Origin: Natronomonas salsuginis
GTDB taxonomy: Archaea; Halobacteriota; Halobacteria; Halobacteriales; Haloarculaceae
Assembly: GCF_005239135.1 (NCBI RefSeq)
Contig: NZ_QKNX01000006.1
Span: 1 to 64,000 of the forward strand
Direction of reading: 5' to 3'
DNA: 64,000 bases
Both the position numbers and the translations under genes were made by a program. Positions within the stretch are counted from its first letter, which is position 1. Every line of letters starts with the position of its first letter. Positions 14,440-45,121 of this stretch are shown piece by piece. The notes beneath the pieces were generated by a model, which worked only from the letters and a program-made list of their open reading frames with translations, made no database searches and was not told the origin of the DNA.

Positions 14440-15159
14440 ATGGCCGGCCAATCCAATCCAAACCGCCGAACGCTCCTCCGGAGTATCGGTACGGCGACGA
14501 TCGGCGGAGCGCTGGCGGGGTGTACGGACGCCATCCCGCTGGGTTCACGCGGCGCCAACGAGCACGTCGTCTTGGACGTTCCCGAAAACTACGAACGGTT
14601 CGAGGACGTCGATCTCCCGTACCCGAAACACGGCGAAGAACTCCCCGACGCGACCGTGCCTGCGCCGCTTCAGGACCGAGACGTGTCGACCCGAGAGTTC
14701 GTCGGTGATCGTCACGTCATGTTGACCTTCATCTTCACGCGCTGTACGATGGCGTGTCCGCGGCTGGTCGCGCCGCTCGTGCGTGTCCAGTCGGTTTCGA
14801 TGGAGGACGGATTTTCCGACGAGTTCGCCTTTCTCCCGACGACATTCGATCCGGCGTACGACACCCCCGATCGACTCGCTGAATACGGCGCGGAGCGCGG
14901 CGTCGACTTCGACGCCGGCAACTGGTGGTTCCTCCGCCCGGAGGGTCGACAGCGCGCCGAGGAGGTCGAGGGGACTTTCGGCGTCACCTCGGAGTTCGTG
15001 CCGGAGAACGAACGCGAGATGGACAACATGGCGTGGGTCCACAACAACGTGTTAGTGCTCGCGAACGCCGACGGCTACGTCGAGCGGACCTACACGCGCG
15101 ATCCGCCGGCGTCCACGACGGTCCTCGAAGACGTTCGGACGCTCCGCGAACGGTGGTGA
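14440..15159 (+). CDS. SCO1/SenC-family copper chaperone lipoprotein
   Basis: A 239-residue extracytoplasmic thioredoxin-fold protein of the SCO family, which delivers copper to the CuA site of haem-copper oxidases or acts as a thiol reductase. The N-terminus has a twin-arginine signal (NRRTLLRSIGTATIGG) ending in a lipobox LAGC with C28. The copper-binding CxxxC is in FTRCTMACPRLV, and the distal histidine is probably in MAWVHNNVLVL. It is upstream of, and on the same strand as, the SafE-like membrane protein, suggesting a joint copper-handling function. Its own promoter is likely near 14402. Confidence 0.92.
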   Translation: MAGQSNPNRRTLLRSIGTATIGGALAGCTDAIPLGSRGANEHVVLDVPENYERFEDVDLPYPKHGEELPDATVPAPLQDRDVSTREFVGDRHVMLTFIFTRCTMACPRLVAPLVRVQSVSMEDGFSDEFAFLPTTFDPAYDTPDRLAEYGAERGVDFDAGNWWFLRPEGRQRAEEVEGTFGVTSEFVPENEREMDNMAWVHNNVLVLANADGYVERTYTRDPPASTTVLEDVRTLRERW

Positions 15160-35441: not shown

Positions 35442-35852
35442 TCAGTTCTCGGCCGCCGCCGCCGGCGGTTCGTCGATCTCCTTCTGATACTTTTTGCGGA
35501 ACTCGCCGATGAGTTGTCCCATCTTGGCGTACCAGTCGTTGAGCATCCGTTGCATGTCGTCGGCGATCTCGTCGGGGTCTGTCGGCCGGAACACGTGGTA
35601 GTAGCCGCCCTGATCGTAGTTGACCTGCTCTTTTTGCACGAATCCGCTCTGGAGTAACCGCTGGATCGAACGGTAGGCCGTCGATCGTTCTCGGTCGACG
35701 GCTTCGGCGATCTCGTCGACGGTGAGCGGTCCCGACGCCTCCGTCAGTACCTTGAATATCTCCTTGTCGAGCCCCTTCAGTCCGTGAATACATTCGAGCA
35801 GGCCCTCACACTGCATGTCCTGCTTGAGGTATTCGCTCATTGCGTCCGCCAT
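35442..35852 (-). CDS. TrmB-family transcriptional regulator
   Basis: A 136-residue winged-helix regulator. The HTH is [20 protein letters not shown] with wing [19 protein letters not shown], followed by a helical tail ([20 protein letters not shown]) and an Ala-rich end. The short length means it lacks the sugar-binding domain of full TrmB. The start at ATG 35852 (MADAMSEYL) is supported by a minus-strand ACTTATCA TATA about 30 bases upstream; ATG 35840 is an alternative. Divergent from the wHTH regulator at 36027, sharing a 174-base promoter region. Confidence 0.85.
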
Positions 35853-36026
35853 TATGTCCAATGTAGGAATTCGGCGTTGATAAGTCTTTGCACATTTGGC
35901 ACAATATTGCCCAGCCGTCCGGGTGTAACCGGCGATTCGGGACCGCTCGGTGCGTCCCACGGGACGGGACGAAACCGATGCTTCATACGTGTCGAGCCGA
36001 AGGCTATCGTAGGCGATCCGGAACCC

Positions 36027-36536
36027 ATGACCGAAACGAGATCCCAAGTGCGCACGCACGTCGAGTCGAATCCGGGCGTCCACTTCAACGCCGTGAGCCG
36101 CGACCTCGACATCGCGACCGGACAGACGCAGTATCACCTTCGCCGGCTTCTCAAGGGCGGCTCCCTGCGGAGCTTGGAGGTGTGCGGCCGGACACACTAC
36201 TTCCCGAACGGCTACTCGCGAACCGAGCAGGCGGCGATCGCGCTGTTACGTCGGGAGACGACGCGCGAGCTCGTCATGCTGTTGCTCGATCGCGAAACGG
36301 ATCAGCCGGCGGAACTCGCCGACGCGGCCGACATCGCGCGCAGCACCGTCGAGTGGCACCTCTCGAACCTCATCGAGTACGATCTCGCCGAGAAGGTGTA
36401 CGACGGTCGGACCGTTTCGGTTCGGTTGACGCGACCGGACCTGCTCAGAGAGACGCTCGTCGAGATCGACCCGAGCCTCCCGGACCGGCTCGTGGATCGC
36501 TTCTCGCGACTCGTCGACTCGCTGCTCGAGCAGTGA
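36027..36536 (+). CDS. Tandem winged-helix transcriptional regulator next to Nos genes
   Basis: A 169-residue protein with two winged helices: the first around residues 5-60 (NAVSRDLDIATGQTQYHLRR), the second around 75-145 (AELADAADIARSTVEWHLSN, wing YDLAEKVYDGRTVSVRL). The first wing carries Cys-His (LEVCGRTHYF), which might sense metal or redox, though this is a guess. It is 62 bases upstream of and co-oriented with nosL, so it most likely controls the Nos block. Confidence 0.85.
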   Translation: MTETRSQVRTHVESNPGVHFNAVSRDLDIATGQTQYHLRRLLKGGSLRSLEVCGRTHYFPNGYSRTEQAAIALLRRETTRELVMLLLDRETDQPAELADAADIARSTVEWHLSNLIEYDLAEKVYDGRTVSVRLTRPDLLRETLVEIDPSLPDRLVDRFSRLVDSLLEQ

Positions 36537-36598: not shown

Positions 36599-37198
36599 AT
36601 GGAACACCAGCGCATCACCGAGCACGGACCGACGCGACGAACGGTCTTGGCGACGATCGCGGTCGGTAGTGCGGGCGCACTCGCCGGCTGTCTCGGCGGC
36701 GGACGCGACGGCCCGGCCGCGATCTCCCTCGACGGCAGCGAGCAGTGTGACAACTGCGGGATGCGGATCGGGATGCACCCCGGTCCGGTCGGCGAAGCCT
36801 TCTACGGCGACGACGCGCCCCCGTCGCTCCCCGACGGCCGCGAAGACGGTATCGCGTGGTTCTGCAGCTCGACCTGCACGTACAACTATCTCCTCGAAAA
36901 CGAGGAGCGGGGCCACGAGTCACAGACCGCCTACGCGACCGACTACTCGAGCGTCGAGTACGAGCTCCGCGACGACGGTGGCACGACCGTCATCAGCGCG
37001 CATCTCGATGCGGCGGCGTTCGCCAACCTTCACGACCTCACGTTCGTCGCCAACAGCGACGTCGAGGGCGCGATGGGTAAGTCGCTCATCGGCTTCACCT
37101 CTGAGGGCGACGCTGAGGCCTTCGCGGCCGAACACGGCGGCGAGCTGTTGACGCACGACGACGTGACGCGCGAGGTCCTGTCGGGCCTCGGGATGTAG
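36599..37198 (+). CDS. nosL: NosL-family copper-binding lipoprotein (classical)
   Basis: A 199-residue extracytoplasmic lipoprotein that binds Cu(I) and supplies apo-nitrous oxide reductase or similar cupro-enzymes. The twin-arginine signal (TRRTVLATIAVGSAGALAGC) ends in a lipobox cysteine. The NosL copper site is QCDNCGMRIGMHPGP (CxxCGM plus Met/His). A further CSSTC lies in the middle, and the family's closing motif is AFAAEHGGELLTHDDV. It converges with nosY. Confidence 0.92.
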   Translation: MEHQRITEHGPTRRTVLATIAVGSAGALAGCLGGGRDGPAAISLDGSEQCDNCGMRIGMHPGPVGEAFYGDDAPPSLPDGREDGIAWFCSSTCTYNYLLENEERGHESQTAYATDYSSVEYELRDDGGTTVISAHLDAAAFANLHDLTFVANSDVEGAMGKSLIGFTSEGDAEAFAAEHGGELLTHDDVTREVLSGLGM

Positions 37199-37216: not shown

Positions 37217-38089
37217 TCACCTTCGTATCGCGACGGCAGCAACGGCGAGCGAGCCGAGCCACCAAATCCCCAGTCCGACGGCGCTTGCGACCGGCGACGC
37301 CATCCGGGGGCCGGTCCCTGCCGTGACGGCGATCGTCGTCTCGAACACCAACCCTCGATACGCGCTGAGCGGACTGATCGCGAGCGAACTCACGAGGGAG
37401 GTCTCCGCTATGACTCCTCGCGCCACCCCGAACACGAGCGCGATGTCGGCCACGAACAGCACCACGAACAGCGAGGCGACCGCGGCGGCGATCGCCGTTC
37501 GGGCCGCGCTGGCTAGCGCCGACATCGCGATCGCGACGGCGAGCATGACCAGCGCGAAGCCGACCGTTAGGACGACGAACCGGAGATACAACCCCGGCGA
37601 ATCAGCCCCCGTGTGGGTCGCATAGAACACGGGTCGGTACGACTCGGTGACGAATATCGGGAACATGAGCGCCGAAAGCGCGGTCGAGACGATCGCGGCG
37701 AGGCCGATCGCTCGACCGAGATACACGCCCACGACGACCTGCCAGGACGAAACGGGATACGTCCGCAGGACGTCGAGCACACCGCGACGCTCGTCGTCGA
37801 CGATCGCCCGATACCCAAACGCGAACGCGATGACCGGAATCAGGAGCTCAAGCGGCGTCAACAGGTCGATGATCGTCGAGACGTACCCGACCTGCACCCC
37901 GCCGCCGAACCAGGCGATCCCGAACAGAACGCCGATGAAGCCGATCCAGACCCCGATGTCGGTCCGGTCCAGTACTGCGGTCGAGAGCTCCCGCCGAATC
38001 AGCGTTCGAAGCGTCACCAGCGTGTTCGGCGTCCGAGGAGACGTGGCGGTTTCGCACGCGTCGGACTCCGACTCCGTCGGCGCGCTCAC
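37217..38089 (-). CDS. nosY: NosY-type ABC transporter permease (copy 1)
   Basis: A 290-residue ABC-2-type permease with six membrane helices (e.g. GVWIGFIGVLFGIAWFGGGV, LELLIPVIAFAFGYRAIVDD). A hydrophilic N-terminus of about 28 residues precedes the first helix. The order with NosF matches NosDFY maturation cassettes. Its start overlaps the nosF stop by four bases. Confidence 0.88.
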   Translation of the reverse strand: MSAPTESESDACETATSPRTPNTLVTLRTLIRRELSTAVLDRTDIGVWIGFIGVLFGIAWFGGGVQVGYVSTIIDLLTPLELLIPVIAFAFGYRAIVDDERRGVLDVLRTYPVSSWQVVVGVYLGRAIGLAAIVSTALSALMFPIFVTESYRPVFYATHTGADSPGLYLRFVVLTVGFALVMLAVAIAMSALASAARTAIAAAVASLFVVLFVADIALVFGVARGVIAETSLVSSLAISPLSAYRGLVFETTIAVTAGTGPRMASPVASAVGLGIWWLGSLAVAAVAIRR

Positions 38090-38880
38090 GTCGATCCCCC
38101 CCGAACGCTGACCGTCTTCGAATCCCCGGCGACGGCCGCGTCGAACGCGTCGAGCAGCGATTCGGTCCCGAGCTCTCCGTTGAGATCCGCGGGCGCACCG
38201 ATCCGCGCGACCGTGCCGTCGTCGAGCAGCACCACCCGGCCGGCGGTGCGTTCGACCAACGCGAGGTTGTGCGAGCTCACCAACACGGCCGCCCCCGCCG
38301 CGGCGAGCTCCTCGGCGATCTCGAAGATGCGGACGCTCATCCCCGGGTCGAGGCCGCTCGCGGGCTCGTCGAGGACCACGAGTGGCGGGTCGCCGACGGT
38401 CGCCTGCGCGATCCCGGCGAGCCGCGTCATCCCGCCCGAGAGCGCCCCGACTGCCCGATCGGTCGCCGCACCCAACCCGACCCGTTCGAGCCGCCGGACT
38501 GTGTCGGCCTCGGTCTCCCCGACGAGCGATCCGTAAAACGCGATCGCCTGTTTGACGGTCTGTCCCGGTCGAAACGCCGGCCGCTGTTGGAGGTATCCGA
38601 TCGGCCTCGGAACGTCCGGGATGCGGTAGTCTACGGTTCCCGCGGTCGGTTCCTGGAGGCCGACGATGTCGCGAATGAGCGTGGTCTTCCCTGCGCCGTT
38701 CGGCCCGATGATCGCCGTCACCTCTCCCGCGGGCACGTCGAACGAGACGTCCTCGAGAACGTCTATTCGGCCGTAGGTGTGTCCCAGCCCGTCGATCTCG
38801 ACGATCGGTGGCCTCGTGGCTGTTGTCGGCTCCGCTTTCGCCGTCGATCCTGTCGTCGTCGCGTTTGCTGACTCACTCAT
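38086..38880 (-). CDS. nosF: NosF-type ABC transporter ATPase (copy 1)
   Basis: A 264-residue nucleotide-binding subunit: Walker A IIGPNGAGKTTLIRDIVGL, signature LSGGMTRLAGIAQATVGDP, Walker B PLVVLDEPASGLDP and switch SHNLALVERT. The GIAQATVGDPPLVVLDEPAS stretch is nearly identical in copy 2. Coupled to nosD and nosY by four-base overlaps on each side. Confidence 0.93.
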   Translation of the reverse strand: MSESANATTTGSTAKAEPTTATRPPIVEIDGLGHTYGRIDVLEDVSFDVPAGEVTAIIGPNGAGKTTLIRDIVGLQEPTAGTVDYRIPDVPRPIGYLQQRPAFRPGQTVKQAIAFYGSLVGETEADTVRRLERVGLGAATDRAVGALSGGMTRLAGIAQATVGDPPLVVLDEPASGLDPGMSVRIFEIAEELAAAGAAVLVSSHNLALVERTAGRVVLLDDGTVARIGAPADLNGELGTESLLDAFDAAVAGDSKTVSVRGGST

Positions 38881-40922
38881 GCTCTCGTCTCCAGTTCGTC
38901 GAGCCGCCCGTCGGACCGACAGATCGGCTCAGTGTCGCCCCGCCCCGTCCGCTCGAACCACTCGGCGTTGACCGGCGCACACAGCGGCGCGGTGTCGATC
39001 ACCTCGTCGGCCCGCATGCCAGGAACGGCTCCTTGGAAGCCCGCGAGCGCGTCGATCGCCGGGGCTCGCGCGAGGGTTCCGGCCCCGTCGACCCGATGGA
39101 GGCGGCCGTCGACGGGATCCGTCGGGGTGTAGGGTCGCTGGATGACGGTCCCGTCGGTCGATCCGACCGCGCCCTCCCAGTAGTTACCCTCGCCGTCGTG
39201 GCTCCAGACGCGGAGCCGCCCGCTGCTGACGGCGACGTGTCGCTCGTTGTCGACGAAGTCGTTGTGCGTGACCCGGTTGGTCGGAAGCTGCGCCCACGTC
39301 TCCGCACCGTCGCGGTTGTCGGCGATGACGTTGCCCTCGATGATCGAGGCGGTCGCGTCGATCCGGAGCCCGAGATAGCTTTCCGTCAGAACGTTGTCGG
39401 CGATGTAGGAGTTCGAGCCGCCGACGATGAGTGCCGTTTCGGTGTCGGATATCCGGTTTCCGACGACGGCGTTCCGCTGTGGCCCGGTCATCACGTGGAT
39501 GCCGGTGAACTCCTGGCCGGAAACGACGTTGCCGGATACCAGCGAGTCGGACGTGAACATCAGGTGAACACCCATCCGATTGCCGCGGATCTCGTTGTTC
39601 CGAATCACGATCCCGTGAGCGCGGTGGGTGTAGACTCCATCCAACCCGCCGAGGAACGTCGAGTGCTCGACGACACCGGGCGAGCGCATCGCGACGAGCC
39701 CCATGTGTCCCTCCCGGTAGTTCTCGCGCCCGACGACGGCGATGTTTCGGACGACGACACCGGGCGAGTCGTAGAGGATGACGCCTGCGGCGTCTGTATC
39801 GATACTCAGGTCGGCGATGAGAACGTCTTGCGCAGTCTCGACGGCGATCGCGGTGTCACCCGTCGCGTAATCCTCCTCGACGTCCTCGTCCCAGTAGTCG
39901 TCCCCGACCGTGTCGCCGCTGTCGTGGCTCGCATCGCCGAGCCGGTGGCTGTGGTCGTCCACCACCGCCGCGTCCGGGGTGCCGTTCCCAACGCCGGAGA
40001 CATCGACCCCGACGATGGCCGACCGGGACGCGCGAACCACCAAGACGGTGCTGTTCCCGTCCCCAACGATGTTCGCGTCCCCCTCCCCTCGGAGCGTCAC
40101 CGGTCTGTCGATCTCGACCGGCTCCTCGACCTCGTGGATACCCTCGGGGACGAGCACCGTCGTGTTCGGCGATGCGGCCTCGATGGCGTCCTGCACCGTC
40201 GTCCCATTCTCGCCGACGACGGCTCCGACTGGACGATCGCGGAGCGCGGACCGCGATTCGACCACGCGGTCGGCCTCGACCCGCTGTGTCCGAACACGAT
40301 CGCGGACGGTGTCGGCGTCGTCGAGTTCGATGTCGGCCTCCAACAGCGCGTCCCACCCCAAAATCCGACCGCCGTGCTCGTCGGCGAACGCCCGCGCGTC
40401 GTCGCGGTCACCGAACGGCAGGATCGCCGTCCGTCCCGAGGGCATCCGCGCGTCGCTGTCGACGACGTAGACGGCCGATTCGGGCGCGATCCAGCCCGGA
40501 TCGTGGTCGCTCCGCGGGAGACCATCGTCCGTCAGTCCAGGGTCGAGATCGGCGTAGTCCGTGACGTACGCCGCGGCGGGGAACCCGAACTGCCGCTCGT
40601 GCGTCGGCTCGCGCTGGGCGGCGACGAACGAGTCGACGCCGTAATAACCGACCACGTAGGGGTACTGCGAGTAGAACACCTCCATTCGGGGCAGTTCGAT
40701 ATCCTCGGACTCGTCTCCCAGGCGCAGCTCGTCCTCGAGCGTCAGCCCGACCGAAACGGTCTCGTCGAAATCGACCGGCTCCGGCGTGGCCGATCCGAAA
40801 TCGACGACGAACAGGCCGATCGATCCCCCGAGCACGACGACGCCGACCGCGACGGCGAGCACCGTCCCGGAGCCGCGATCGCGGTTGGCATCCGCGTCGT
40901 CCACCGGTCGTGTTGGCGTCAT
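38877..40922 (-). CDS. nosD: NosD with fused N-terminal NosL-like domain (copy 1)
   Basis: A 681-residue membrane-anchored extracytoplasmic protein. Residues 19-41 are a membrane anchor. Residues about 79-195 resemble NosL: AAAYVTDYADLD, VYVVDSDARMPSGRTAILPF and AFADEHGGRILGWDAL match the C-terminal half of NosL, but the NosL cysteines are missing. From about 240 comes the NosD right-handed beta-helix (repeats such as IVIRNNEIRGNRMGVHLMFT and NVVSGQEFTGIHVM). Bacterial NosD is about 430 residues without the extra part. It is coupled to nosL2 upstream and nosF downstream by four-base ATGA overlaps. Confidence 0.9.
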   Translation of the reverse strand: MTPTRPVDDADANRDRGSGTVLAVAVGVVVLGGSIGLFVVDFGSATPEPVDFDETVSVGLTLEDELRLGDESEDIELPRMEVFYSQYPYVVGYYGVDSFVAAQREPTHERQFGFPAAAYVTDYADLDPGLTDDGLPRSDHDPGWIAPESAVYVVDSDARMPSGRTAILPFGDRDDARAFADEHGGRILGWDALLEADIELDDADTVRDRVRTQRVEADRVVESRSALRDRPVGAVVGENGTTVQDAIEAASPNTTVLVPEGIHEVEEPVEIDRPVTLRGEGDANIVGDGNSTVLVVRASRSAIVGVDVSGVGNGTPDAAVVDDHSHRLGDASHDSGDTVGDDYWDEDVEEDYATGDTAIAVETAQDVLIADLSIDTDAAGVILYDSPGVVVRNIAVVGRENYREGHMGLVAMRSPGVVEHSTFLGGLDGVYTHRAHGIVIRNNEIRGNRMGVHLMFTSDSLVSGNVVSGQEFTGIHVMTGPQRNAVVGNRISDTETALIVGGSNSYIADNVLTESYLGLRIDATASIIEGNVIADNRDGAETWAQLPTNRVTHNDFVDNERHVAVSSGRLRVWSHDGEGNYWEGAVGSTDGTVIQRPYTPTDPVDGRLHRVDGAGTLARAPAIDALAGFQGAVPGMRADEVIDTAPLCAPVNAEWFERTGRGDTEPICRSDGRLDELETRA

Positions 40923-41521
40923 TCGTCGTGCTCGTGGCCGTGTCCGCTCCCGCGCTGTAACCGATCGATGATCACGGGATCGATCTCCTCGAACGAGAGG
41001 GCGATACCACCGTGCTCGGCGGCGAACGCCTCCGCTTCCGCCTCGTCCGAGAAGGGGTGCAACGCCGGCCCCATCCCGCCCATCACCTCGCTCTCGGCGA
41101 CGTAGGTGAGGTCGGCCGCCTCGCCGAAGGTCTCCGCCGCCGTCGGGGACGGCATCTGTAACCGGCCGTCCCGCTCCGTCAGTTCGTACTCGACCTGCGA
41201 GAAGTCGGTCACGTAGACGACGCGGGGCTCCCAGCCGCGATCGAGCCGACCGAAGTGATACGGGAACAGCCCGAACACCAGCGTGTGAAACCACGCCGGG
41301 TTCTCGCCCCGATCGGGCGCGTTTTCGGCGTAAAACACCTGTCCGTTCGCACCGCCGTGCCGTCCGATCACCATCCCGCCGTGGTCGTCGTACTTTCCAC
41401 CGGAGAGGTCGACCGGTTCGGGGACGTCCCCCTCCATACCGGAGGCCCCCCGACCGAGACAACCAGCGAGGCCACCGCCGGCGAGGATGATACCAGATGC
41501 CAACAGCGCTCGACGGTTCAT
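40919..41521 (-). CDS. NosL-like lipoprotein lacking the CxxC copper site (copy 2)
   Basis: A 200-residue lipoprotein with a Tat-type signal and lipobox (NRRALLASGIILAGGGLAGC). Downstream homology to NosL is clear (VVYVTDFSQVEYELTERDGR, ESEVMGGMGPALHPF, AFAAEHGGIALSFEEI), but at the copper site the usual CxxCGM is replaced by YDDHGGMVIGRHGG, with no cysteine after the lipobox. The C-terminus is His-rich (GHGHEHDE). It may bind copper through His/Met or a different metal. First gene of a coupled nosL2-nosD-nosF-nosY set. Confidence 0.87.
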   Translation of the reverse strand: MNRRALLASGIILAGGGLAGCLGRGASGMEGDVPEPVDLSGGKYDDHGGMVIGRHGGANGQVFYAENAPDRGENPAWFHTLVFGLFPYHFGRLDRGWEPRVVYVTDFSQVEYELTERDGRLQMPSPTAAETFGEAADLTYVAESEVMGGMGPALHPFSDEAEAEAFAAEHGGIALSFEEIDPVIIDRLQRGSGHGHEHDE

Positions 41522-41613
41522 ACCTGACAGTACACCCCATTCTGACAAACGACTATTGGTACGATTTTCGAACCGCAGACCGGGGGACGACGATTCGATC
41601 GAACGAGCGACGG

Positions 41614-42510
41614 CTACCGGTCCCGACGCGCGTCTTCGTAGCTGCGAAGCGCCGGTTCGAGCACGTGATCGGTGACGACACGGCGGATGCCACTCAAAAC
41701 GGACTCGGATCGGCCGACGAAAATAACGATCACTGCGAGACTCGACGCGGTCCACGCGAACAGTCCGGCGATCGCGGCGGTCACGTCGATTGCCCGTCCC
41801 GTGTCGGTCGCGACGCCGACGACCGTCTCGAGTACGAGCCCGCGGTAGGCGGCGTTCGGACTCACCGCGAGCGCCGTCTCTAGGAACTCGTCGCCGATCG
41901 AGTCAGCCGTGACCCCCGCCAACACCAGGAGGTCACCGCCTGCGACGACCGCGACGAGAATGGCGAGTGCGGCCGCGAGGGCCGCTCGTCCCGTTCGGAC
42001 GACGACCGCCGCCGCCATCGTCATCGCCAACACGACGGCCCCAAAGCAGATCGTCAACGCGATGAACCGGACGAACAACACCGGTGAATCGATCCCTCGG
42101 TGCACCGCGAACACTCGCGATTCGGGCCCGCCGACCAACGACACGGCGACGCCGACGACGGCGAGTGGGCCGCCGACGATACCCGCCAGTCCCACCAACC
42201 GCCCTGCGAAGACGCCACTGACGAGGGACGCGTTCGAGACCGGATACGTCCGGAGGACCGAGCGATCGTCGTTGTCGCCGCTGAAGGCCCGGTACCCGAG
42301 CGCAACCGCGACCAGCGGAACGAGCAACTCGAGCGGCAAGAGCAGGTCGACGGCAGCCGGAACGTACCCCCCTCCGATCCCACCCCCTGCTCGGAGTATG
42401 CCCGCGAACACGGCGAGGAGTCCGGCCGACAAGAACAGGTAACTCCGGGTTCTGGCGACGGTCGAAAGCTCGCGCCACGCGACCGGACCGAATCCGTCGA
42501 GTCGGCTCAT
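41614..42510 (-). CDS. nosY: NosY-type ABC transporter permease (copy 2)
   Basis: A 298-residue six-helix permease paralogous to the gene at 37217 (e.g. PLELLVPLVAVALGYRAFSG; LRTYPVSNASLVSGVFAGRL). The last helices are followed by a basic tail. It overlaps nosF2 by four bases. The 92-base gap after its stop holds the likely promoter of nosL2 (a BRE/TATA-like GTTCGAAAAT on the minus strand). Confidence 0.87.
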   Translation of the reverse strand: MSRLDGFGPVAWRELSTVARTRSYLFLSAGLLAVFAGILRAGGGIGGGYVPAAVDLLLPLELLVPLVAVALGYRAFSGDNDDRSVLRTYPVSNASLVSGVFAGRLVGLAGIVGGPLAVVGVAVSLVGGPESRVFAVHRGIDSPVLFVRFIALTICFGAVVLAMTMAAAVVVRTGRAALAAALAILVAVVAGGDLLVLAGVTADSIGDEFLETALAVSPNAAYRGLVLETVVGVATDTGRAIDVTAAIAGLFAWTASSLAVIVIFVGRSESVLSGIRRVVTDHVLEPALRSYEDARRDR

Positions 42511-43232
42511 CGGTTCCCCCCGACCACTTCGACGCGGTCGGTTTCGCCCACGATGGCGTTCAACACGCCGCGGAGCGAATCGGTCTCGAATCGTGAGTAC
42601 AATTCCTCGAGCGTCCCCGATGCGGCGACCGTCCCCCGATTCAACACGAGCACGTCGTCGGCCGTCTCTTCGACGAGCGCCATGTCGTGCGAGCTGATGA
42701 GCACCGTCCGCTTCTCGCCAGCCATCCGAGCTGCCGTCTCGAAGACGTGCTCGCTCATGTTCGGATCCAGTCCGCTCGCGGGCTCGTCGAGGACCACGAG
42801 CGGGGGATCGCCGACGGTCGCCTGCGCGATGCCGAGCAGCTGTCGCATCCCGCCCGAGAGGTTCTCGACGTTCCGGTCGGCGGCGTCCACCAAGCCGACG
42901 CGATCGAGCAACGCCTCCGGATCGCCGCCGTCGAGCAGCGACGAGTAGAACGCGAGCGTCTCGGCTGCGGTGAATCCAGCGCGAAAGGTCGGCTGTTGGG
43001 GGAGATAGCCGATCGTCCGGTCGGTGTCCGGCCCCTCGTAGGAGACGACGCCGTCCGTCGGCCGAAGATCGCCGACGAGCGTCCGGAGCAGCGTCGTCTT
43101 CCCGGAGCCGTTGGGACCGATGACGGCGACGACCGAGCCCGACGACACGGAAAACGAGACGTTCGCGATGACGTCGACCGGGCCGAACGACTTCGACACG
43201 CCGTCGACCCGAAGCACGGTCTCCTCGCTCAC
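42507..43232 (-). CDS. nosF: NosF-type ABC transporter ATPase (copy 2)
   Basis: A 241-residue ABC ATPase (Walker A VIGPNGSGKTTLLRTLVGD, signature LSGGMRQLLGIAQATVGDP, Walker B PLVVLDEPASGLDP). GTG start at 43232 chosen because it overlaps the nosD2 stop by four bases (GTGA), as in the other pairs; GTG 43241 is the alternative. Coupled to nosY2. Confidence 0.92.
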   Translation of the reverse strand: MSEETVLRVDGVSKSFGPVDVIANVSFSVSSGSVVAVIGPNGSGKTTLLRTLVGDLRPTDGVVSYEGPDTDRTIGYLPQQPTFRAGFTAAETLAFYSSLLDGGDPEALLDRVGLVDAADRNVENLSGGMRQLLGIAQATVGDPPLVVLDEPASGLDPNMSEHVFETAARMAGEKRTVLISSHDMALVEETADDVLVLNRGTVAASGTLEELYSRFETDSLRGVLNAIVGETDRVEVVGGNR

Positions 43233-45121
43233 GCCGAACACACCTCCCCGGCGCTCGCGTTTCCGTTCGAAAGCGCCCGCGCGGTCTCCAACCGGGCCGG
43301 CTGCTTCGGTGCGTCGCGCGGTGTGGCATCGATCACGCTGTTGTCCCGCATCCCCGGTGCCGATCCGCGGAGCGTCCGAAGGCCGCGCACAATCGGTCCG
43401 TCCGCGAGCGTCCGGGCCGCCCCGGTCCGGTGGAGTCGGCCGTCGACGGGATCGGTCGGACTGTACGGCCGGTTCAGCCCCTCGGCACCGCTCCAGTAGT
43501 TGCCCTCGCCGTCGTTGCTCCAGACCCGAAGCGGTCCGCTCGTCGCTCGAACGTGCCGTTCGTTGTCGGCGACATCGTTGCCGACGACGACGCTGGTCGG
43601 AAAGACCGACGAGGCCCGGAAACCGACTGCGTTTCCGACGATTGTGTTGTCGGCGTACAGCGAGTTCCGTGCGCTCGTCGAGATCGCCTGCCCGGTGTTG
43701 ATGACGGTGTTGTTCCCGACGTACGCGTCCGAGCCGCTCGTCGCGATCCCCTGCCGGGTCTCTGCGACGACGTTGTCGGCGATGGCCACGCCCGAGGGGC
43801 TCGTCATAATGACGACGCCGGACAGCTCCTGTTCGATCGCGCAGTTCCCAGCCACGAGCGCATCCGAGGTGTACATCAGGTGGACGCCGAAGCGGCCGCC
43901 GACGAACCGGTTATCGCGTACCGTGATCCCGCCGGATCGGTGGCTATACACCCCGTCTCGCCCGTCCTCGAACGTCGAGCGCTGCACGACCGCCGGTGAG
44001 CGTATCGCGACGACGCTCATGAACCCGTCCACCGGCTCGCTCGCGCCGCGTATCCGAACGCCATCGACGACGGCGCGGTCGACGTCCCTGAGGACGATCC
44101 CGGAGGCGGGCGTTTCGGCGCTGACCCCAGCGACGAGCAGCCGATCGACGCCGTCCGCGGTGACCGCGGCGTCGGAGTAGCCGTACGCCTCCTCAGTCTG
44201 GCGATCCCAGCTGGCTCGATCCTCGTCGACCGACGGATCCTCAGCTTGCAGCGAATCGCCGATCCCGTCGATCTCGACGCCCGAGATCGCCACATCGTCG
44301 GATCCGACGGTGACGACGGTTCCGTTGCCGTCGCCGTCGATCGTCGCCCCGTCACCGACGATCGTGACCGGTTTCGCGATCTCGATCGGGCCCGCGTAGG
44401 TCCCCGGCGGCAGCCGGATCGTCGTGTTGGGTTCCGCCGCCGCGAGGGCCGCCCGAAGCGTCGGTTCGTCCTCGCCGACGACGATCCCCGTCGGCCGGTC
44501 GAGCAGCTCGCGAGCGTCCCGGACCCGGTCGTCCGCGCCGGCGTGCTGGGACGCGATCCGATCGCGGGCGACCGAGCCGTCGTCGCGTCGCGTCTCGAAC
44601 CGGGCGCGCTCGTCCCAGCCGACCACCCACCCGCCGTGTTCCGACGCGAACGCCGCCGCACCGGCTCGGTCGGCGAACGCGACGGGCGTCGGACCGGCCG
44701 GCGTCCGCGCGTCGCTTCCGGTCACGAAATACGCCTCATCGGCCCGCACCCACTCGTCCGTGTTCTCGCCCACGAGGTGGCCGGACTCGTCGAGCGACAC
44801 CTCTGCCGGCGCGGCTTCGACGTACACGACGAGCGGATAGCCGAACTGCTGCTCGACGAGCGGGTCGTCGACCGCCGCCGCCGCGAGTTCGACCCCGCGG
44901 TAGCCGACGACGTACGGGTACTGTGAGTATGCGATCTGCGCTCGGGGGAGCAACTGTTCCGCGCCGAGCGCCTGCCGCTCTTCGAGCGTCAACCCCATCG
45001 CGACGGTCTCGTCGAAGTCGGCCGGCTCCGGCGCGGACGCGCCCGGTGACACGACGAACGACCCGACACCGACGAGCACGAAAAGAGAACAGCCTATCGC
45101 GACTGCGACTCGAAGCGTCAT
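43229..45121 (-). CDS. nosD: NosD with fused N-terminal NosL-like domain (copy 2)
   Basis: A 630-residue membrane-anchored protein with the same layout as copy 1: an N-terminal anchor (about residues 5-25), a NosL-like part (about 60-172; shared AYSQYPYVVGYRG, AYFVTGSDARTPAGPTPVAF, AFASEHGGWVVGWDE) without cysteines, and a beta-helix from about residue 215 (e.g. ITVRDNRFVGGRFGVHLMYT). First gene of the coupled nosD2-F2-Y2 set. The 150 bases upstream hold its promoter region; no specific box is certain. Confidence 0.88.
   Translation of the reverse strand: MTLRVAVAIGCSLFVLVGVGSFVVSPGASAPEPADFDETVAMGLTLEERQALGAEQLLPRAQIAYSQYPYVVGYRGVELAAAAVDDPLVEQQFGYPLVVYVEAAPAEVSLDESGHLVGENTDEWVRADEAYFVTGSDARTPAGPTPVAFADRAGAAAFASEHGGWVVGWDERARFETRRDDGSVARDRIASQHAGADDRVRDARELLDRPTGIVVGEDEPTLRAALAAAEPNTTIRLPPGTYAGPIEIAKPVTIVGDGATIDGDGNGTVVTVGSDDVAISGVEIDGIGDSLQAEDPSVDEDRASWDRQTEEAYGYSDAAVTADGVDRLLVAGVSAETPASGIVLRDVDRAVVDGVRIRGASEPVDGFMSVVAIRSPAVVQRSTFEDGRDGVYSHRSGGITVRDNRFVGGRFGVHLMYTSDALVAGNCAIEQELSGVVIMTSPSGVAIADNVVAETRQGIATSGSDAYVGNNTVINTGQAISTSARNSLYADNTIVGNAVGFRASSVFPTSVVVGNDVADNERHVRATSGPLRVWSNDGEGNYWSGAEGLNRPYSPTDPVDGRLHRTGAARTLADGPIVRGLRTLRGSAPGMRDNSVIDATPRDAPKQPARLETARALSNGNASAGEVCSA

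Follow-up and report, generated by a model that had tools for sequence, protein, structure and literature searches.

A ligand-free NosL-like domain fused to the NosD beta-helix in a nosZ-independent haloarchaeal clade

Two tandem nos-type clusters in Natronomonas salsuginis

The window analyzed here, a stretch of 64,000 nucleotides from Natronomonas salsuginis (positions 1 to 64,000 of NZ_QKNX01000006.1), encodes two paralogous NosD-like proteins, NosD1 and NosD2, in tandem clusters with nosF, nosY, and nosL. Both lie on the minus strand where a preliminary description of this DNA had placed them (NosD1 at 40922-38877, NosD2 at 45121-43229). The relevant features are:

14440-15156, plus strand: SCO1/SenC protein, ~22 kb away from the nos genes
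35784..36536, plus strand: HVO_0163-type winged-helix regulator (PF24266, E 3e-31)
36599..37198, plus strand: NosL1, stand-alone NosL lipoprotein with CxxCxM (Pfam NosL, E 1.9e-39)
37217..38089, minus strand: NosY1, ABC permease; start overlaps the nosF1 stop (GTGA)
38086..38880, minus strand: NosF1, ABC ATPase; start overlaps the nosD1 stop (ATGA)
38877..40922, minus strand: NosD1, long NosD-like protein, 681 aa (Pfam NosL and NosD; AF2 model)
40212..40784, minus strand: NosL-like domain of NosD1, residues 47-237 including the linker helix (Pfam, profiles, AF2 and Foldseek)
40638..40673, minus strand: YSQYPYVVGYYG motif of NosD1, residues 84-95, conserved in the long-NosD family
40919..41521, minus strand: NosL2, stand-alone NosL lipoprotein without the CxxC cysteines (YDDHGGM; Pfam NosL, E 1.3e-30)
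41614..42510, minus strand: NosY2, ABC permease, 298 aa
42507..43241, minus strand: NosF2, ABC ATPase
43229..45121, minus strand: NosD2, long NosD-like protein, 630 aa (Pfam NosL and NosD)
44474..45031, minus strand: NosL-like domain of NosD2 (Pfam and profile searches)
44894..44929, minus strand: YSQYPYVVGYRG motif of NosD2, residues 65-76

Along the minus strand the genes follow the order nosD2-nosF2-nosY2-nosL2-nosD1-nosF1-nosY1, with nosL1 on the plus strand. The NosDFY gene set is thus present, nosD being accompanied by nosF and nosY in overlapping genes. The nosD1 ATG likewise overlaps the nosL2 stop as ATGA, and the nosL2-nosD1, nosD1-nosF1, and nosF1-nosY1 overlaps are as expected of one translation unit.

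NosL (PF05573) is the Cu(I) chaperone of the CuZ site (PDB 2hpu, 7og7, 7osf), and NosDFY together with NosL is usually regarded as serving nitrous oxide reductase alone. A bacterial NosL-NosDFY complex is named in the titles of PDB entries 7osf, 7osg, 7osj, and 7znq (NosDFYL).

The N. salsuginis genome holds six NosL matches in all, including two further NosL-family proteins elsewhere (C1:216245-216640 and C4:121145-121492). NosL2 keeps the Met, the His, and the second Met despite the loss of both CxxC cysteines, and stand-alone NosL proteins of this type occur in six other loci, mostly of Halorubrum (6 of 60 stand-alone NosL).

The N-terminal region of NosD1 and NosD2 is a NosL domain

The preliminary description had proposed that both NosD proteins carry an N-terminal NosL-like domain, and had named a profile search, a structure prediction, and a survey of haloarchaeal NosD lengths as ways to check this. 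Pfam-A alone places NosL N-terminally and NosD C-terminally in both proteins, above the curated cut-offs. PF05573 matches residues ~80-193 of NosD1 (E 5.1e-13, 49.9 bits) and residues 120-171 of NosD2 (E 1e-10, 42.5 bits; cut-off 24), and a whole-genome search returned NosL matches in the two genes at 40344-40688 and 44609-44767. The NosD family (PF05048) scores 98.9 bits in NosD1 and 86.7 bits in NosD2 (cut-off 23.6). A profile built from 22 NosD N-termini only aligned to that of stand-alone haloarchaeal NosL with a probability of 98.8% (hhalign, E 7e-17). Searched against all PDB sequences, the same profile ranked the four distinct NosL sequences of the PDB first (E 1.4e-8 to 9.2e-7; next match, 0.12), which places the homology to NosL far beyond chance.

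The predicted structure is in agreement. An AF2 model of the NosL-like domain, based on an alignment of 71 sequences, reached a mean pLDDT of 87.7, and Foldseek returned six significant PDB matches for it, all of them NosL (probability 1.00, E 3.6e-6 to 3.9e-4), followed by a seventh at E 0.66. The NosL alignments span 120-156 columns, with TM-scores of 0.53-0.66 by target length. Together, the profile, PDB, and AF2/Foldseek results extend the likeness beyond the AFAxEHGG end to most of the NosL fold. NosD1 comprises an N-terminal hydrophobic segment, the NosL-like domain, a linker helix, and the beta-helix; its full-length model (pLDDT 89.0, pTM 0.90) places a helix of 27 residues between the domain and the beta-helix and has NosD chains 7o0y and 7osf as best PDB matches. 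In the models, the N-terminal region folds as NosL and lies outside the beta-helix; neither of the two outcomes that the preliminary description had named as refuting its proposal was thus observed. It is close to certain that residues ~47-200 of NosD1 and NosD2 are a NosL domain fused to the NosD beta-helix, and profile, fold, and tree results (see below) concur on this part of the preliminary description.

Ligand loss and conservation in the fused domain

The candidate ligands described for NosL comprise the CxM/CxxCxM motif plus a second conserved Met (PMC6530538). In stand-alone haloarchaeal NosL (n=15), the CxxCxM columns contain Cys in 14, Cys in 14, and Met in 15 sequences, and the second Met is found in 15. 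In the 71 fused domains, no Cys, Met, or His exceeds 41% in any column. Judged from these counts, the fused part is a NosL-derived module without the known copper site. The absence of cysteine from the domain, reported earlier for the two proteins, holds: NosD1 contains cysteines only at positions 648 and 668, and NosD2 at 11, 427, and 628. Neither protein has a lipobox Cys; the first Cys of NosD1 is residue 648, and Cys11 of NosD2 is the sole Cys in its hydrophobic segment and is not common to the family. The shared YSQYPYVVGYxG segment is real and conserved across the family, but its reported position at the NosL copper site holds only roughly, as it aligns to the strand just after CxxCxM.

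Near-invariant motifs, such as FGxP and VVGYxG, run through the fused domain family, and its mean pairwise identity (44%) approaches that of the beta-helix (49%). This small difference makes functional constraint on the domain probable. Such conservation speaks against the main rival explanation, in which the domain would be a structural cap that stabilizes the beta-helix in high salt and has no docking or copper role. The loss of the ligands in the whole clade would suit a cap, and the full-length model fits a rigid packing of the domain; ordinary haloarchaeal NosD, however, lives in the same salt without one, and we regard a mere cap as rather unlikely. As to the earlier suggestion of a "chaperone-like or docking part", docking is the likelier of the two and a chaperone-like role the less likely, as the copper ligands have been lost family-wide.

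The fusion is a fixed feature of one haloarchaeal clade

We surveyed 391 haloarchaeal genomes, in which a TIGR04247 cut-off of 300 bits splits ordinary from long NosD. Ordinary NosD (>300 bits) is present in 112 of them, often in open frames near 460 aa. The long form, recognized by a profile of the NosL-like domain, occurs in open frames in 239; it is mostly ~640-670 aa long and scores near 200 bits or less with TIGR04247. Twelve further genomes with weak matches only were left out as probable stand-alone NosL. NosD1 and NosD2 fall with the long form at 178.8 and 185.9 bits. A local oddity or a gene-calling artefact is rejected as the source of the fusion, given its presence in open frames in 239 genomes.

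The 74 named loci include 67 haloarchaeal long-NosD loci, which come from many genera. Every intact long NosD inspected (70 places) carries the NosL-like domain, and the small number of haloarchaeal matches that lack it are found at contig ends, at frame breaks, or in a partial frame (Halobacterium salinarum). In none of the nine ordinary-NosD loci with long flanks does the ordinary NosD carry the domain. In a draw of 247 genomes of the phylum, the fusion did not occur outside Halobacteria, and no phage record matched. The gene context recurs as well: nosF and nosY accompany nosD in all 20 clusters retrieved, and in most long-NosD loci they lie downstream of nosD, with nosL nearby.

A beta-helix tree groups the long forms into one clade (SH-aLRT 100) that excludes ordinary haloarchaeal NosD and the NosD of Chloroflexota. 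The fused domains likewise group into a single clade that contains none of the stand-alone NosL sampled (UFBoot 99, with a warning by the tool that long branches meet there), which led us to reject a recent fusion to the neighboring nosL. The simplest explanation is a single fusion, with descent and paralogy thereafter. The fused NosL is a fixed architecture of the whole haloarchaeal clade of such NosD proteins and is not specific to N. salsuginis.

Long NosD occurs independently of nosZ

Full-length nosZ, probed with TIGR04246 (PF18764 found nothing even in the controls), is present in 113 of the 391 haloarchaeal genomes. Ordinary NosD is accompanied by NosZ in all 112 of its genomes; in the one remaining NosZ genome, the NosD match is partial and falls below the cut-off. 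By comparison, long NosD is found without nosZ in 151 of its 239 genomes, and 25 genomes carry nosZ without long NosD. Long NosD is, as this distribution shows, independent of NosZ.

N. salsuginis itself falls on the nosZ-less side. TIGR04246 identified no nosZ in its genome, where the match at C2:642753 covers only the CuA domain, and nirK was likewise not found. A service of NosD1 and NosD2 to nosZ or nirK in this organism was therefore rejected, both clients being absent and the distribution contrary as well. Because the genome lacks nosZ, the name "NosD" in its denitrification sense is misleading for the two proteins. These results also bear on the reading of the long form as an ordinary NosD that matures nitrous oxide reductase and has gained a chaperone domain. 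Its NosD and NosL families and its nosF and nosY are indeed those of the nos operon; this reading is nevertheless contradicted by the distribution, in which nosZ is always accompanied by the other NosD, and by the scores of both copies (179 and 186 vs 300 bits), and we consider it highly improbable. As long NosD is usually found without NosZ, it probably helps to load copper into something else, such as respiratory oxidases.

Long NosD is associated with SCO1

In a set of 97 genomes, long NosD co-occurs with SCO1 (odds ratio 16.7, p 1.7e-8), and its association with NosZ is not significant (p 0.18). By genus majority, SCO1 is present in 26 of 26 genera with long NosD vs 4 of 18 without (p 2.7e-8), the genera not being fully independent. 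Physical linkage follows the same trend: SCO1 lies within 10 kb of 18 of 60 long-NosD loci (15 genomes; 0.4 expected) and of none of 32 ordinary-NosD loci. In most long-NosD loci, including that of the N. salsuginis window, SCO1 is not linked. Other genomes encode SCO1/SenC, redoxin, DsbD_2, and a double-NosL protein near long NosD. The CuA of cytochrome oxidase subunit II is the target of SCO1 and TlpA-like thioredoxins (review, PMC7558416). The SCO1 data, which are an association only, point to CuA-type oxidase assembly.

The machine might instead serve another client, such as NirK, a halocyanin, or a multicopper oxidase, or might export sulfur species in place of copper. Several observations fit such alternatives: the association of NirK with long NosD is weakly positive (p 0.036 by genus), the N. 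salsuginis genome has a multicopper-oxidase-like match at C5:99268, and NosDFY has been proposed to supply sulfur (PMC6530538). However, 19 of 63 long-NosD genomes lack both NirK and NosZ, and the association with SCO1 is much stronger than that with NirK; we judge a different client or cargo unlikely.

Other genes recur in the vicinity. An HVO_0163-type winged-helix regulator lies near 21 of the 67 named long-NosD loci and may regulate the system. Ten loci encode a member of a lipoprotein family with NosL-type CxVCNM domains no farther than 10 kb from long NosD, several of them next to SCO1, and the member at L121:14167-15318 has two NosL-type domains in tandem. A small DUF7471 membrane protein adjoins nosL at L127:14631-14948 and in 12 other loci; its fusion to DsbD_2 in locus L125 hints at a role in the same copper/redox pathway.

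A proposed mechanism

From these data we infer that long NosD, with NosF, NosY, and a separate Cys-containing NosL lipoprotein, may form a copper-insertion machine for a target other than nitrous oxide reductase. Its cargo is assumed to be copper, by kinship with NosL and NosD. Stand-alone NosL would carry Cu(I), and the built-in pseudo-NosL would hold or orient NosL, or the client, on the beta-helix, offering a fixed NosL-like surface next to it during the ATP-driven cycle. NosFY would drive this conformational cycle, and copper would be passed to an exported cuproprotein, most likely a CuA-type oxidase also served by SCO1. To the mechanism as a whole, namely, a NosZ-independent NosLDFY machine with a docking pseudo-NosL and copper probably going to SCO1-dependent oxidases, we assign a probability of roughly 45%. 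More tentative is the specific version in which a haloarchaea-wide, nosZ-independent NosLDFY builds the CuA or a related oxidase site together with SCO1 and the fused NosL acts as the receptor for copper-carrying NosL.

Relation to known systems and implications

The N-terminal domain of NosD1 and NosD2 shares the sequence profile and predicted fold of NosL but differs from it in lacking CxxCxM, the second Met, and the lipobox, and in being joined to a beta-helix protein. Similarly, the long form has the beta-helix and nosF-nosY context of NosD (PF05048, TIGR04247; PDB 7o0y, 7osf), yet it carries ~190 extra N-terminal residues, misses the TIGR04247 cut-off, and forms a separate clade that is not tied to nosZ. 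SCO1/SenC (PF02630), the presumed partner that co-occurs with and often adjoins the long-NosD cluster, is thioredoxin-like and unrelated to long NosD.

The fusion has surfaced in annotation. The plasmid gene product QCC61054.1 in GenBank (Natrinema thermotolerans DVR14_20635) is named "nitrous oxide reductase accessory protein NosL/NosD"; it is a long NosD like NosD1 and NosD2 and is followed by ABC genes and nosL, but the record is an annotation only, in which ligand loss, distribution, and function are not analyzed. In most other plasmid records, the long form is a "NosD domain-containing protein", with "NosD" used for the ordinary form. Haloferax mediterranei HFX_RS15875, a NosD that is listed with both the NosL and NosD families (PMC9240420), may be of the same kind, although its plasmid gave no match in the plasmid set searched; the same paper reports nosFY without nosZ in H. 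volcanii. Transcriptome papers mention nosY in Halobacterium NRC-1, where nitrate/nitrite use was undetected, and, as copper uptake, in Haloquadratum walsbyi (PMC1971269, PMC5496347). A search of the open-access literature, which leaves most subscription papers outside, found no study of a NosL-NosD fusion and no experiment on the long-NosD clade; the fusion thus appears to be already in databases but unstudied.

A conserved NosD clade in genomes without nosZ implies that the NosDFY/NosL machine has a second client and that denitrification is a misleading label for long-NosD genes. The fused pseudo-NosL offers a natural handle on the NosL-NosD interaction, and in nosZ-less haloarchaea the copper step would be open to study apart from N2O reduction.
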